A DNA stretch of 64,000 nucleotides, from positions 1 to 64,000 of the forward strand of contig JAJDAL010000039.1 of assembly GCA_029261875.1 (NCBI GenBank), written 5' to 3'. Shown here in pieces: positions 41,645-52,489 of the stretch. The translations under genes were made by a program, and so were the position numbers. Source of the stretch: Deltaproteobacteria bacterium (GTDB taxonomy: Bacteria; Myxococcota_A; UBA9160; JAJDAL01). The notes beneath the pieces are model-generated. The model worked only from the letters and a program-made list of their open reading frames with translations, had not been told where the DNA came from and made no database searches. Positions within the stretch are counted from its first letter, which is position 1. Every line of letters starts with the position of its first letter.

Positions 41645-42646
41645 TTAGAGAAACGGAAACTCCGTCGGGTGGGTGACGGGCGGGCCGTCGGCGGGCTGGG
41701 CCGAGGAGGCGCGTTCGAGAACGGACCAATATCCGTTGGCCACGCAGGCCCCCTCCAGCGCGCCGCGCTCACGCAGCATGCGGTGCATTCGCGGCAGGTT
41801 GTAATGGGGAACCATGAATGCCAGGTGATGCTCCAAGTGATAGTTCACACGGTTGGGCGCGATCAGAAAGCGCTCCCAGAGACTGGCCAGCGTGGTTCGC
41901 GTGTTGCGCAGCAGACTGCCGGTGTCGGGCACCATGGTGTGTTCCGCAATGGCGCGAATGCGCGTCATCAGGGCATTGGTCGTAAACCATGCGGCGACCC
42001 ACACGAGATACAGTGCCGGATACCCCGCAGCGGTCAGAATTCCCAGCAGCACGAGATTCGTAATCACCACGCCGCGCAGGTTCCGCCAGCTTCCCCCGCC
42101 GTCGCGCATGACTTTGCCGCGCGTCCGTCCCAGGTCGCGCTTGAGCGTTACCTTGGCGCGCTTCCAACCGGTTTGTCCCGACAGGTCGCGCCAGATCTTT
42201 CGCCGCAGGCTCTCGCGCGTGATGGGGAACGGGGTTGCGAGGCCCAAGTCCGGGTCTTCGTGGGTCCAGGTCTTCAAGTGATGTTGCAGGTGGTAATTGC
42301 GGTAGGGACGCAGGTCGCTCCAAACCGGAAAGGCGCACAGCCAGTTGCCCACCCAATCGTTGAGTTTGCGGTTCTTGAGCAAGGTGCGGTGGGCGGCTTC
42401 GTGCATGAGGACCGCCATTCCGAGTTGACGCGCGCCGATGATGACGATGGCGGCCAGGACCGTCAGCGGATTGGGCCAAACGCCCACCAGAGCCAACGCG
42501 CCGAATACCACCGCCCAGTTGAGTGCGATGGACGCCCAACCCTTGAGGTCGTTCATCTGCAACAGGTCCCGGTATTCGGCCTCGGTCAGCGTTTCACGCC
42601 ATTCCCAACGCGGACAGGTGTCCGCCGGTTGCGGTGCAGCGCTCAT
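41645..42646 (-). CDS. Membrane fatty acid desaturase
   Basis: This 333-residue integral membrane diiron desaturase has all three histidine boxes: HEAAH at 82-86, HLQHH at 119-123 and HLEHH at 270-274. Hydrophobic pairs flank them. It introduces a double bond in an acyl chain (or hydroxylates a related lipid) with oxygen and an electron donor. The ATG overlaps the stop of the PaaX-type regulator by four bases (ATGA), so expression of both is coupled. Confidence 0.92.
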   Translation of the reverse strand: MSAAPQPADTCPRWEWRETLTEAEYRDLLQMNDLKGWASIALNWAVVFGALALVGVWPNPLTVLAAIVIIGARQLGMAVLMHEAAHRTLLKNRKLNDWVGNWLCAFPVWSDLRPYRNYHLQHHLKTWTHEDPDLGLATPFPITRESLRRKIWRDLSGQTGWKRAKVTLKRDLGRTRGKVMRDGGGSWRNLRGVVITNLVLLGILTAAGYPALYLVWVAAWFTTNALMTRIRAIAEHTMVPDTGSLLRNTRTTLASLWERFLIAPNRVNYHLEHHLAFMVPHYNLPRMHRMLRERGALEGACVANGYWSVLERASSAQPADGPPVTHPTEFPFL

Positions 42647-45096: not shown

Positions 45097-45900
45097 ATGA
45101 GCACCGATACGATGACCCTGGAGGAGGCCGAATCCGGACGCGATTGGCGCATCTGGTTTGGCTTGGCGACCACGCTGTTCTGGCTGTTGCTGGGCTTTCA
45201 GTACATCAGCGGCGTGGTGGGCTGGCGGGTTTTCATCTTTCAGCCCGCCGAGGCGATGGGGGGATTCCTCGAAGGCGCGTTTGCGCCGTTGGCGTTCTTG
45301 TGGCTCGTGATCGGGTTTTTCTTGCAGCAGCGGGAGCTGAGCCAGAACACCAAGGCGATCCGCGCCCAGTACGAAATGATGCGCCGTACGGCGGAGAACG
45401 CGGAGGTTCAGGCCCGCGCCATTACCTCCAACGCGTTGCACCAACGCCAGGAAACCATGCTCATGGTGGCGGACCGCGTGGCGAAGCAGCTCGGTGCCGT
45501 GACGGGGCTGCTCTTCATGTCCAGTCAGACGCTGGACGCCGGCGGTGAAGCGACCGACGAGCAGGTTGGGGAGATGTGGCATCGCCTGGGGGATGGGGAT
45601 CCCGAGGTATTCAGCCGCCAACTCTTGGCCGCTCATTTCCGAGCACAACCCGAATCCGATTTCGAAATCTTTTACGGAACCGAAATTCGCGCGCGGCACA
45701 GCGAGACCATCTATTCCAATTTCAAGCGCTTGATGGACGCCGTGGAGGGCTGCGATCCCGAGGGCATCATCCGCGATGCGATTCGGGGAAGTGCCCACGG
45801 TCGGGTCTTCCAGTTCATCTCCGACCATCGCGCCGACCCTTCCCGGGCGGACGCGCTCGCGCGGGTCGTGGCACCGGGTGTCGAGCGGCGCTCGCCCTAG
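45097..45900 (+). CDS. membrane protein with coiled coil, unknown function
   Basis: I do not recognise a family. The 267-residue protein has two N-terminal hydrophobic segments (about residues 20-42 and 55-85, the second FAPLAFLWLVIGFFLQQREL), then a helical, coiled-coil-like part (LSQNTKAIRAQYEMMRRTAE). An acidic C-terminal domain of about 150 residues follows. The layout suggests an inner-membrane anchor with a cytosolic sensor or scaffold domain. A strong CAGGAGGAG precedes the ATG. Its stop interlocks with the convergent diiron gene (CTAG). Confidence 0.75.
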   Translation: MSTDTMTLEEAESGRDWRIWFGLATTLFWLLLGFQYISGVVGWRVFIFQPAEAMGGFLEGAFAPLAFLWLVIGFFLQQRELSQNTKAIRAQYEMMRRTAENAEVQARAITSNALHQRQETMLMVADRVAKQLGAVTGLLFMSSQTLDAGGEATDEQVGEMWHRLGDGDPEVFSRQLLAAHFRAQPESDFEIFYGTEIRARHSETIYSNFKRLMDAVEGCDPEGIIRDAIRGSAHGRVFQFISDHRADPSRADALARVVAPGVERRSP

Positions 45901-46910
45901 GCGAGGCCGAGTTCCCGATCCTGGGCTTCGGGATCCGCGTTCTCGAACTCGATGATTTCGAGTTTCTCGAAGGCGCTGCGTACCCGCGGCGTGATCAGAC
46001 CCAGGCGGTTCAGGTTCGGCACGACGCGCGCGAACAGCATGCGGCGAAAGATGGTGCCGGTCTTCGACTGCAGCACGACGTCCTGCACTTCCTGGGGGTT
46101 CCACCCCATGGCGTCGGCGATCTGTGAGCCCACCAGACGATTGCGCATCAGTTCACACGAGTAGATGATGAAATCCTCGCGGTCCTTGAGCTCATTGGCG
46201 GGCATGTCCTTGTAGTAGTCCTTGAGGGACAGCATGCCGAACGCCACGTGGCGCGACTCGTCGCGCATCACGTTGTAGACGAGGTCTTTCAGGAGCGGTT
46301 CGTTGGCCATCTTGTACATGCTGCCGAAGGCCGCCATGGCCAAGCCTTCGATGATGATCTGCATGCCGAGATATTTGAAGTCCCAACGCGAGTCGGTGAT
46401 GGTGGCGTCGAGCAGCTCCTTCAAACTTTCGTTGATGGGCCATTCCCACTCGAGCTTCTCGCGCGTGTAGCGGCTGAAGACCTCGACGTGGCGCGCTTCG
46501 TCCATGGTCTGGGTGCTGGCGTAGTACTTGGCATCCATCCAGGGGACGCCCCCCACGAGCTGCGACGCCACGATCATGGCGCCTTGCTCGCCGTGCAAGA
46601 ATTGGGAGAGCTGCAGGGCGATCTGGCCGTGGCGCAGCCGCAGTCGTTCTTTTTCGTTCAGCTTCTGGAACGGCGCGTAATCTTCCAGAGGATTGAAGAT
46701 CTGCGGGATGATTTCGCTTTCGGGGTCGACGTCCGTGTCCCAGGCGAGCTGCTCGCTGGCGTTCCATTGCTCGCGCTTGGCTTTTTCGTAGAGATCGTGG
46801 AGGCCCTCTTTGGAGGAGCCGTAATTCCACACGTAATTCGTGTCGAAGTTGGCAAGGATGGTCTCCAACTCCGAGTCGAGCTGTTGCAACTGATTTACCG
46901 CAGTGGCCAT
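45897..46910 (-). CDS. Ferritin-like class I diiron protein, probable oxygenase
   Basis: The 337-residue protein has a complete 4-Glu/2-His diiron set: E108 (HGEQGAMIVA), E138 and H141 (DEARHVEVF), E188 (IEGLAMAAFG), E218 and H221 (DESRHVAFG). This is the ribonucleotide-reductase-like/AurF-like ferritin superfamily. A radical-site Tyr is not obvious, so oxygenase or desaturase chemistry is more likely than nucleotide reduction. The start at 46910 follows CGGAGGAAC and a clear promoter. The gene is divergent from a TetR regulator with which it shares a control region. Substrate unknown. Confidence 0.85.
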   Translation of the reverse strand: MATAVNQLQQLDSELETILANFDTNYVWNYGSSKEGLHDLYEKAKREQWNASEQLAWDTDVDPESEIIPQIFNPLEDYAPFQKLNEKERLRLRHGQIALQLSQFLHGEQGAMIVASQLVGGVPWMDAKYYASTQTMDEARHVEVFSRYTREKLEWEWPINESLKELLDATITDSRWDFKYLGMQIIIEGLAMAAFGSMYKMANEPLLKDLVYNVMRDESRHVAFGMLSLKDYYKDMPANELKDREDFIIYSCELMRNRLVGSQIADAMGWNPQEVQDVVLQSKTGTIFRRMLFARVVPNLNRLGLITPRVRSAFEKLEIIEFENADPEAQDRELGLA

Positions 46911-46962
46911 GAGTTCCTCCGGGGCGTCGGCTCTGCCGGACGCAAGGCGGGCACGCCAAAAA

Positions 46963-47027
46963 ATCATAGATCTCGGGAATTTAGGCGTCAATGCGAAATT
47001 GAATTCAGATTCAACTTTCTTTAGAAT
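46963..47027. promoter_or_regulatory. divergent promoters with shared palindrome (diiron gene / tetR)
   Basis: Minus strand: TTGACG (46991-46986), 17 bases, TATGAT (46968-46963) drives the diiron gene. Plus strand: TTGAAT (46999-47004), 17 bases, TAGAAT (47022-47027) drives tetR. The perfect palindrome TTGAAT-TCAG-ATTCAA (46999-47014) contains the tetR -35 and lies just upstream of the diiron gene's -35. It is the obvious operator for the TetR-type product. Confidence 0.75.
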
Positions 47028-47058
47028 TCGAGGCCTTGCCCCAGCCGGGAGTCCCCTC

Positions 47059-47694
47059 ATGGCCGCACAGCCCAAACGCGCCTCCGGATCCCGGGTCCGG
47101 GTTCCCCAGCAGGCCCGCAGCCGCCGCACCCGCGACCGCATCCTGGAGGCCGCGGTCGCGTGTTTCGAGGAGCGGGGGTACGACGAGACGCCCATCACCG
47201 CGATCGCGAAACGCGCCAAGATCTCTGTGGGGAGCTTCTACACCTATTTCGAGGAAAAGCAGTCGATCCTGCTCGAGCTGGTCGACCGCACGGTCAATCG
47301 GATCGCGAAGCACGTCATCGCCAATGTCGATCCCGAAGCCTGGCAGGGGCGCGACCCGCGGGAGATCTTGCGTTCGTTGATCGACGCGGTGTTTCACATG
47401 CAGCGCCTGAATCCCGGGATGCAGCGCATCATGCTCGAGCGCTACTTCAAAGACGAAGCGCTGCGTGCGCCGGTCGAGGAAATCCGAGCGCAGATTCGCG
47501 AAGCCGTGGAGAAGTATCTCGAAGCCTTGGCGGCGGAAGGTCAGCTGCGCGCGGTCGATCCCCACAGTGCCGCCTACGTGATCACCAACGCGGTGCAGTG
47601 GAACGCGATTCACGCCTATGTCGAGGGCGAGGATCTCGATCGGGCCGCGGCCACCACGGCCCGCATGGTGGAACGCTTCCTGTTTTCCGATTGA
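47059..47694 (+). CDS. TetR/AcrR-family transcriptional regulator
   Basis: This 211-residue regulator has an N-terminal TetR helix-turn-helix: RDRILEAAVACFEERGYDET, then ITAIAKRAKISVGSFYTYF. The ligand domain is all-helical and uninformative. ATG at 47059 has GGGAG upstream. The protein probably binds the palindrome in the shared upstream region, repressing itself and controlling the diiron gene. The inducer could be a fatty acyl or aromatic molecule, but nothing in the sequence decides this. A strong hairpin overlaps its stop codon. Confidence 0.92.
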   Translation: MAAQPKRASGSRVRVPQQARSRRTRDRILEAAVACFEERGYDETPITAIAKRAKISVGSFYTYFEEKQSILLELVDRTVNRIAKHVIANVDPEAWQGRDPREILRSLIDAVFHMQRLNPGMQRIMLERYFKDEALRAPVEEIRAQIREAVEKYLEALAAEGQLRAVDPHSAAYVITNAVQWNAIHAYVEGEDLDRAAATTARMVERFLFSD

Positions 47695-47718
47695 GGGCTC
47701 GCCTTGCGGCGAGCCCTC
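47693..47718. terminator. 11-bp hairpin between convergent tetR and DUF2330 genes
   Basis: GAGGGCTCGCC (47693-47703) pairs exactly with GGCGAGCCCTC (47708-47718) around TTGC, overlapping the tetR stop codon. Neither side has a T tract, so it may work as a bidirectional barrier or need Rho. Confidence 0.5.
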
Positions 47719-47733
47719 GGTCGTGCGTCCGGA

Positions 47734-50879: not shown

Positions 50880-51461
50880 ATGCGTGAAATCAAGACGGGA
50901 CTCCTCGGAACGGCTCTCGGTGTAACGATCCTCAGCCTCGCGGTCTGCGGGACCGCGCGGGCGGGCGAGATCGAGGGGGTCTATTTCCCGGATGCGGTCC
51001 GGGTCGGGGGCGACCGCCTCCCGCTGTACGGCCTGGGTCTGCTGCGCTATCGCATTTTCATCAAGGCCTACGTGGCCGCGTTGTATCTTCCGAGCGAAGC
51101 CAAACCCAGCTCGGTGTTGGACGATATCCCCAAGCGGTTGGAGCTGCACTACTTCTGGAGCATCGGGGGGGAGGGTTTCGGCAAGGCCGCGGATCAGATA
51201 TTGGAACAGAATCTGGACGAACCTTCGCTTGCGCGTTTGCGCGAGCGACTCGATCGATTGCACGCGCTGTACCAGGACGTAAAAGACGGCGACCGCTATT
51301 CGCTCACCTACCTTCCCGGCGTGGGTACGGAGCTCGCCAAGAACGGGAAACCGCTGGGAACCATTCCGGGAGCCGATTTTGCCCAGGCGTACTTTTCGAT
51401 TTGGCTCGGTGCGGCACCCATCGACGATTCTCTGAAGCGCCAACTGTTGGCGGGGCTTTGA
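50880..51461 (+). CDS. Exported chalcone-isomerase-like domain protein
   Basis: This 193-residue protein has a signal peptide ([19 protein letters not shown], cleaved before GEIEGV) and a chalcone-isomerase-like fold: [21 protein letters not shown] and later [18 protein letters not shown]. Related bacterial proteins bind fatty acids or are of unknown role; flavonoid chemistry is not implied. It is likely periplasmic. The ATG at 50880 has GAGGTAGCGG upstream. Its stop overlaps the next gene's start as TTGA. Confidence 0.85.
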
Positions 51462-52489
51462 GTCAGGGGCGGCGCTCTCCTGTAGGGTTGTCGGCGGCGG
51501 CTCGTCGCAGCATCACGGTTCCGCTCTACACCCTTCTGTTTCTCATCGGTGTGGCGACGGCGATCGTCTGGGTGCCTGCCCTGACGATTGTGGATCGATC
51601 GCGCAGCGGTGTTCGCGCGGCGCTTCGCTGCGGCTTGTTCTTCGTCTACTACCTCGGAATCGAGGTGGTCGGGATCGCAGCGGCTTTCGCGGTGTGGTGT
51701 GTTCGTTGGCTTCGCCCGGGGGTCACGCCCGAGCAGTACCAGCGTTGGAATCTCGCCCTCGAACACACCTGGGGCCAGGCGCTGCTGGCTGGAAGCCAGC
51801 GTATCTTCGGTTTCCGGATCGAGGTCGAGGGAACGCAAGCCGTAGCCTCGGGGCCGATGCTGCTGCTGCTGCGTCATGCGAGCGTCGCCGATACGCTGCT
51901 CGCCGCCCACGCGATCTCCAAACCCTATGGGTGGAGCTTCCGCTACGTGATGAAGCGCGAATTGCTCTGGGATCCCTGCATCGACATCGTCGGACTGCGC
52001 GTGCCCAATTATTTCGTCGATCGGGCGTCGGACGATCCGGCGAGCGAGGTCGAAGCCGTTCGCGAATTGATGCAGGGACTGTCCGATTCCGAGGGGATCT
52101 TGATCTACCCCGAAGGCACGCGGTTCACAATCGCCAAACGCGAACGCATTCTGGGACGCCTCGAAGCGCAGCCAAGTCCGAACCTCGAACGCAGCCGGCG
52201 CCTGCAGAACGTTCTGCCCCCGCGTCTCGGCGGCAGCCTCGCCTTGTTGGACGCCAACCCCGGTCTCGACGCCGTGTTTTGCGCCCATGAAGGGTTCGAT
52301 AGCGCGGGCACGTTCTGGGATCTCTGGACCGGGTGCTTGGTGGATCGGCGGATTCGCGTGTGCTTTTGGCGCATTCCCTTTTCGGAAATTCCCAAGGATT
52401 TCGACGGACGCGTGGAATGGTTGTTCGACCAGTGGGACCGCGTCGATGCCTGGGTGGGGCAAGTGAAGCGAGAGGCTGCGGGTGAGTAG
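51458..52489 (+). CDS. Lysophospholipid/1-acylglycerol-3-phosphate acyltransferase
   Basis: This 343-residue membrane acyltransferase has two N-terminal hydrophobic segments (about residues 20-45 and 60-85), the catalytic HxxxxD motif at H140-D145 (RHASVADTLL), and the phosphate-binding YPEGTRF. It resembles the LCLAT/AGPAT-like group. It should move acyl chains onto glycerophospholipids. TTG at 51458 is chosen because it overlaps the preceding stop as TTGA. The gene ends with an 8-base overlap with polB. Confidence 0.86.
   Translation: MSQGRRSPVGLSAAARRSITVPLYTLLFLIGVATAIVWVPALTIVDRSRSGVRAALRCGLFFVYYLGIEVVGIAAAFAVWCVRWLRPGVTPEQYQRWNLALEHTWGQALLAGSQRIFGFRIEVEGTQAVASGPMLLLLRHASVADTLLAAHAISKPYGWSFRYVMKRELLWDPCIDIVGLRVPNYFVDRASDDPASEVEAVRELMQGLSDSEGILIYPEGTRFTIAKRERILGRLEAQPSPNLERSRRLQNVLPPRLGGSLALLDANPGLDAVFCAHEGFDSAGTFWDLWTGCLVDRRIRVCFWRIPFSEIPKDFDGRVEWLFDQWDRVDAWVGQVKREAAGE

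Follow-up and report, generated by a model that had tools for sequence, protein, structure and literature searches.

A conserved putative operator shared by a tetR gene and a divergent diiron oxygenase gene

The locus and its palindrome

Does a short palindrome lying between a gene for a TetR-family regulator and a divergent gene for a diiron oxygenase serve as the operator of that regulator, and would its occupation affect one gene or both? The question arises from a 64,000-nucleotide stretch of DNA (hereafter the window). The regulator gene, tetR (47059 to 47694, plus strand), encodes a protein of 211 amino acids with an N-terminal helix-turn-helix, seen in the alignment and matched by PF00440 (2.1e-15; 56.7 bits against a cut-off of 24). 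KstR and Bacillus FadR-type TetR regulators, by their NCBIfam and PDB names, are among its best sequence matches, and its scores against the corresponding NCBIfam equivalogs are 50.1 bits where KstR takes 280 and 55.5 bits where Bacillus FadR takes 200. Directly after the tetR stop codon lies a strong hairpin (window 47691-47722: GAGGGCTCGCC-TTGC-GGCGAGCCCTC; fold z-score -5.65) that has no T run and may serve as a terminator separating tetR from the convergent gene. The neighbor on the other side (45897 to 46910, minus strand) encodes a 337-residue AurF-like diiron oxygenase with the ExxH motifs EARH and ESRH in its translation. It matches PF11583 (7.5e-8) with 32.3 bits, just over the curated cut-off of 29.6, and this match is what it shares with the AurF p-aminobenzoate N-oxygenase family; no AurF chain was matched when the protein was compared by sequence with solved structures. 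The gap between the two genes is 148 bp, and the regulator thus has a divergent neighbor within 200 bp. Fatty acid desaturase-like and acyltransferase-like genes, recognized by eye from their translations (window 41645-42646 and 51401-52489), lie less than 6 kb from the pair.

The first-pass annotation had described one TetR-type palindrome serving two promoters, and the palindrome and both promoter-like pairs are found exactly where it placed them, by direct reading and by a promoter scan. The core TTGAATTCAGATTCAA (TTGAAT-TCAG-ATTCAA) occupies 46999 to 47014, with its dyad centre between 47006 and 47007. Toward the diiron gene, on the minus strand, lie a -35 box TTGACG (46986 to 46991) and a -10 box TATGAT (46963 to 46968); toward tetR, on the plus strand, lie a candidate -35 box TTGAAT within the palindrome (46999 to 47004) and a candidate -10 box TAGAAT (47022 to 47027). 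Both pairs have a spacer of 17, and they were exactly the two that a consensus scan of 46700-47300 returned, against 0.1 expected from shuffles. They had been called facing promoters; in the window they run divergently, back to back. A whole-genome pattern search found one copy of the exact palindrome, TTGAATNNNNATTCAA, in the 5.68-Mb genome. Taken alone, the bare palindrome is unremarkable and weak evidence, given that, when the 148-base gap was shuffled 400 times by dinucleotides, 19 of the shuffles held a 6+6 repeat with a loop of 4 and 124 held one with any loop from 0 to 8.

A conserved site in homologous gaps

Relatives of the two genes were collected from 79 genomes of the order (18 of them, including that of the window, gave a TetR match at 1e-33), from 377 genomes of the phylum (19 with a TetR match at 1e-30) and from a further genome-contig collection, which contributed eight diiron loci. 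The combined searches yielded 20 TetR places. At 15 distinct loci, window included and duplicate fetches of one place set aside, tetR and a same-clade diiron gene diverge across gaps of 114 to 375 bases. The other five are a place at a contig edge (L010), two with tetR placed after another kind of diiron gene (L014 and L015), one with no diiron neighbor (L040) and one with another neighbor (L042).

An unsupervised motif search over the 15 gaps, allowing zero or one site per sequence and not supplied with the palindrome, returned a motif of width 24, gAAa.TGACGTCGg.TTCAgaTTT, present in 15/15 gaps; its log-likelihood was 237.0, where six shuffled sets gave 71.1-83.2. The stretch that it covers in the window is GAAATTGAATTCAGATTCAACTTT (46995 to 47018, plus strand), that is, the palindrome with its flanks, and this footprint is what we take as the conserved, putative operator; the KstR motif differs from it. 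Scored with a model built without the window, the site is the best of the whole 64 kb (22.9 bits), followed by an overlapping reading (16.4) and by 14.0 elsewhere. When each locus was left out in turn and both strands were scored, the site ranked first in its whole locus in 13 of 15 cases and second in the other two (L006 and L007), where an overlapping reverse-strand reading scores higher; L007 therefore has the site in inverted orientation. Phylogenetic footprinting of the 148-base gap, named by the first-pass annotation as a check on its proposal, has thus come out in its favor, and it also upholds the placing of the element directly upstream of the diiron -35 box and in common to two divergent genes.

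The comparison establishes the site and its conservation, and at the same time changes its description. On average, 6.5 of 12 pairs are dyad-symmetric about the aligned centre, compared with 3.1 about other centres within the gaps. Pairs 5 and 6 (GA/TC) are kept in every gap, and pairs 3 and 4, which form part of the palindrome arms, are kept in 2/15 and 1/15. The conserved putative operator is thus about 24 bp long, AAAnnTGAnnnn|nnnnTCAnnTTT, and only half symmetric. What had been proposed as the operator holds good as a conserved element, but only the window shows the perfect 6+6 symmetry, and the conserved site is longer. The alternative that the palindrome arose by chance in an AT-rich promoter gap, for which the shuffling frequency of 124 in 400 speaks, is extremely improbable: since the element is kept in all 15 homologous gaps, far above the shuffled sets, and its symmetry peaks at the aligned centre, the window palindrome goes beyond chance.

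Association of the site with the TetR clade

A site adjoining the -35 box of the diiron gene might also be a promoter or UP-type element, or be recognized by some other regulator, with TetR not bound to it at all, and the binding of TetR is indeed a prediction. Upstream of same-clade diiron genes lacking an adjacent tetR, however, the site is absent in 22 of 23 rows (best score 6.4 or less), several of these rows being one place from two collections. The sole exception (L056, 32.5) stands at a contig edge, where tetR could lie beyond. The site stays beside the same TetR when the diiron gene is of another clade: at L014 and L015 (28.1 and 30.7; two of two) it stands upstream of such a gene, which shows 27% identity over part and is followed by a co-directional tetR. 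It is also kept at L042 (25.4), where no diiron gene is adjacent, and its inverted occurrence in L007 likewise speaks against a promoter element. Together these observations make an element independent of TetR highly improbable.

One place counts against the operator reading. The TetR of L040, a close relative (56% identity), has no site upstream (best 8.0) and no diiron neighbor; in its genome a weaker site (19.8) lies upstream of a second diiron gene. At up to two mismatches, the pattern is found in 15 of 18 TetR-bearing relatives and in 3 of 31 relatives without TetR, a comparison that is partly circular because the pattern was drawn from TetR-bearing genomes. G002, in which no TetR was found, was set aside from it, and in G027, among the matches, the match stands at another gene. 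Its occurrence nonetheless shows that the site follows the TetR clade rather than the diiron gene itself. The palindrome is one species' version of a site conserved among relatives, and through it TetR very probably controls the diiron oxygenase gene and its own.

Promoters and the predicted mode of regulation

Conservation of the promoters differs between the two sides of the site. Counting from the dyad centre toward the diiron gene, TTGAC begins 14-15 bases away in 8 of the 15 gaps, with a fair -10-like hexamer at a spacer of 16-18 in the same eight; the five best columns average 0.60 bits, whereas the offset controls reach 0.38 at their 95% level. Alignment thereby establishes a constant position of the diiron -35 box in these gaps, and the seven gaps with no TTGAC box at that offset count against the operator reading. 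On the tetR side no block of columns stands out among the 15 gaps (0.26 bits at best), and no tetR promoter at a fixed spacing was found there, a further point against. The window's own tetR promoter is consequently supported by a single genome's sequence: the earlier claim that the palindrome overlaps the tetR -35 box is correct for the candidate box of the window, but no such promoter is seen at fixed spacing in its relatives.

With a probability of roughly 0.7, we infer that the adjacent TetR has its operator in this element and that TetR represses both tetR and the diiron gene; the binding, the repression, the start sites and the release by a ligand all belong to this inference. TetR would bind as a dimer to the 24-bp site that separates the divergent genes. 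On the window sequence this dimer would cover the candidate tetR -35 box, with the dyad centre near -28 relative to the inferred start of tetR, and would shut off its own gene. The operator also adjoins the diiron -35 box on its upstream side, with the dyad centre near -50 relative to the inferred start of the diiron gene, and RNA polymerase would most likely be blocked there as well. A ligand, probably the oxygenase's substrate or one of its products, would then free TetR from the operator.

Activators, too, commonly bind at about -50, which counts against double repression. The same dimer on the same operator might repress tetR and activate the diiron promoter by contacting RNA polymerase just upstream of the -35 box. 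The constancy of the 14-15 base offset in 8/15 gaps, despite gap lengths of 114 to 375, would suit such a contact, and activating and dual TetR proteins do exist, as stated in the available text of PMC3511530. Yet the footprint ends only 2-3 bases from the -35 box, so that a constant spacing needs no special cause, and the diiron boxes of the window already make a good promoter (TTGACG-17-TATGAT). Moreover, in the available text of PMC3511530, gaps below 200 bp go with repression, and all five tested TetR regulators with such gaps repressed their divergent neighbor. Activation of the diiron gene is therefore unlikely. Repression is favored by this precedent, given a gap of 148 bases here, and repression of both genes fits an operator lying over the tetR -35 box and against that of the diiron gene.

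Relation to known systems

The arrangement as such is of an ordinary and known kind; the operator family is new. As in the TetR/tetA system, tetR is divergent from a single neighbor and the operator, in a gap of 148 bp, overlaps the candidate promoter of the regulator; TetR/tetA differs in having two operators and a pump as target, in place of one operator and a diiron oxygenase (PMC3511530, available text). The window operator is also unlike the operator sequences given in that part of PMC3511530. A diiron oxygenase under a dedicated repressor is known from BioE-BioL, according to the available text of PMC12915131, in which BioL is a MocR-family protein and BioE serves biotin synthesis; the likeness is one of arrangement. 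Literature searches with the motif strings, and for a pair of TetR with an AurF-like or other diiron protein, returned nothing relevant and no report of such a pair, which is no proof of absence. What had been a bare palindrome thus becomes a supported putative operator that has a consensus, in a group for which the records named here come from uncultured assemblies. It ties an uncharacterized clade of diiron oxygenases to a dedicated regulator, the ligand of which would point to the substrate of the enzyme.

Possible wider targets and a probable change of operator

In the window's own genome the window site is the only perfect match to the pattern, and a second target was not found, 22 of the matches having been judged from their listing entry. 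Two places with two mismatches (L077, 25.5; L078, 23.6) were rejected as targets on account of lying inside likely genes, and no site stands upstream of L168, the second diiron gene as it occurs in this genome (best 6.5). Among relatives, six places away from the tetR loci score at least 23.5. Four of them, with genes called by a GC3 gene caller, concern a PhyH dioxygenase gene (L114 in G027, 30.6), a flavoprotein gene recognized by Pfam (L140 in G052, 25.9), the second diiron gene (L126, 23.8, taking a later start than the longest frame) and a cupin gene (L134 in G056, 23.5). The first three sites lie between genes, upstream of the gene named; the caller puts the fourth inside a 5' extension of the cupin gene itself, and with a later start taken it lies 23 bases upstream. 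The remaining two (L182 and L188) reach equal scores but lie inside genes, and chance matches therefore occur at such scores. The second, distant diiron gene has upstream sites in G052, G044 and G006, and a weaker one in G066; at L164 the gene caller puts the site inside an extended frame. A wider regulon in relatives is thus only suggestive.

In the TetR tree, the window protein falls inside the clade (97/99), the other site-bearing members of which have half-sites of the GACGTC or GACGTG type. As the rest of the clade with sites carries this type, the GAATTC half-site of the window is probably derived. The recognition helix of the window protein reads SVGSFYTYF, compared with mostly AVG[TS][VL]Y[GN]YF, and its F and T occur only in the window among 20 aligned clade proteins; F is found at the same place in a paralogous TetR group. 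Our hypothesis is that operator and recognition helix may have changed together, one lineage counting as one event. That across the order the clade governs a small regulon made up of oxygen-dependent enzymes, and that the window lineage underwent a natural switch of operator specificity, from GACGTC-like to GAATTC along with the recognition helix, is a tentative proposal that we think somewhat doubtful. The altered operator and helix of the window nevertheless offer a ready test of how TetR specificity changes.

A paralogous TetR-diiron pair, with both genes co-directional, has a palindrome of its own near AGAATCAGAATACTGATTCT upstream of tetR, the letters of which vary (by eye; L016, L017, L018, L019, L020, L022, L023, L027, L028, L030 and L106), and the window's genome has one copy of this pair (L106, G000:C6). 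The idea that the window operator is a hybrid with this operator was rejected, because the GAAT/GATTC letters common to both lie, by eye, at unequal distances from the two dyad centres. A related palindrome, AAAATTGACATCGAGTCAATTTTT, was seen at L133 (G044:C6:2275-2297), 36 bases upstream of another TetR gene.
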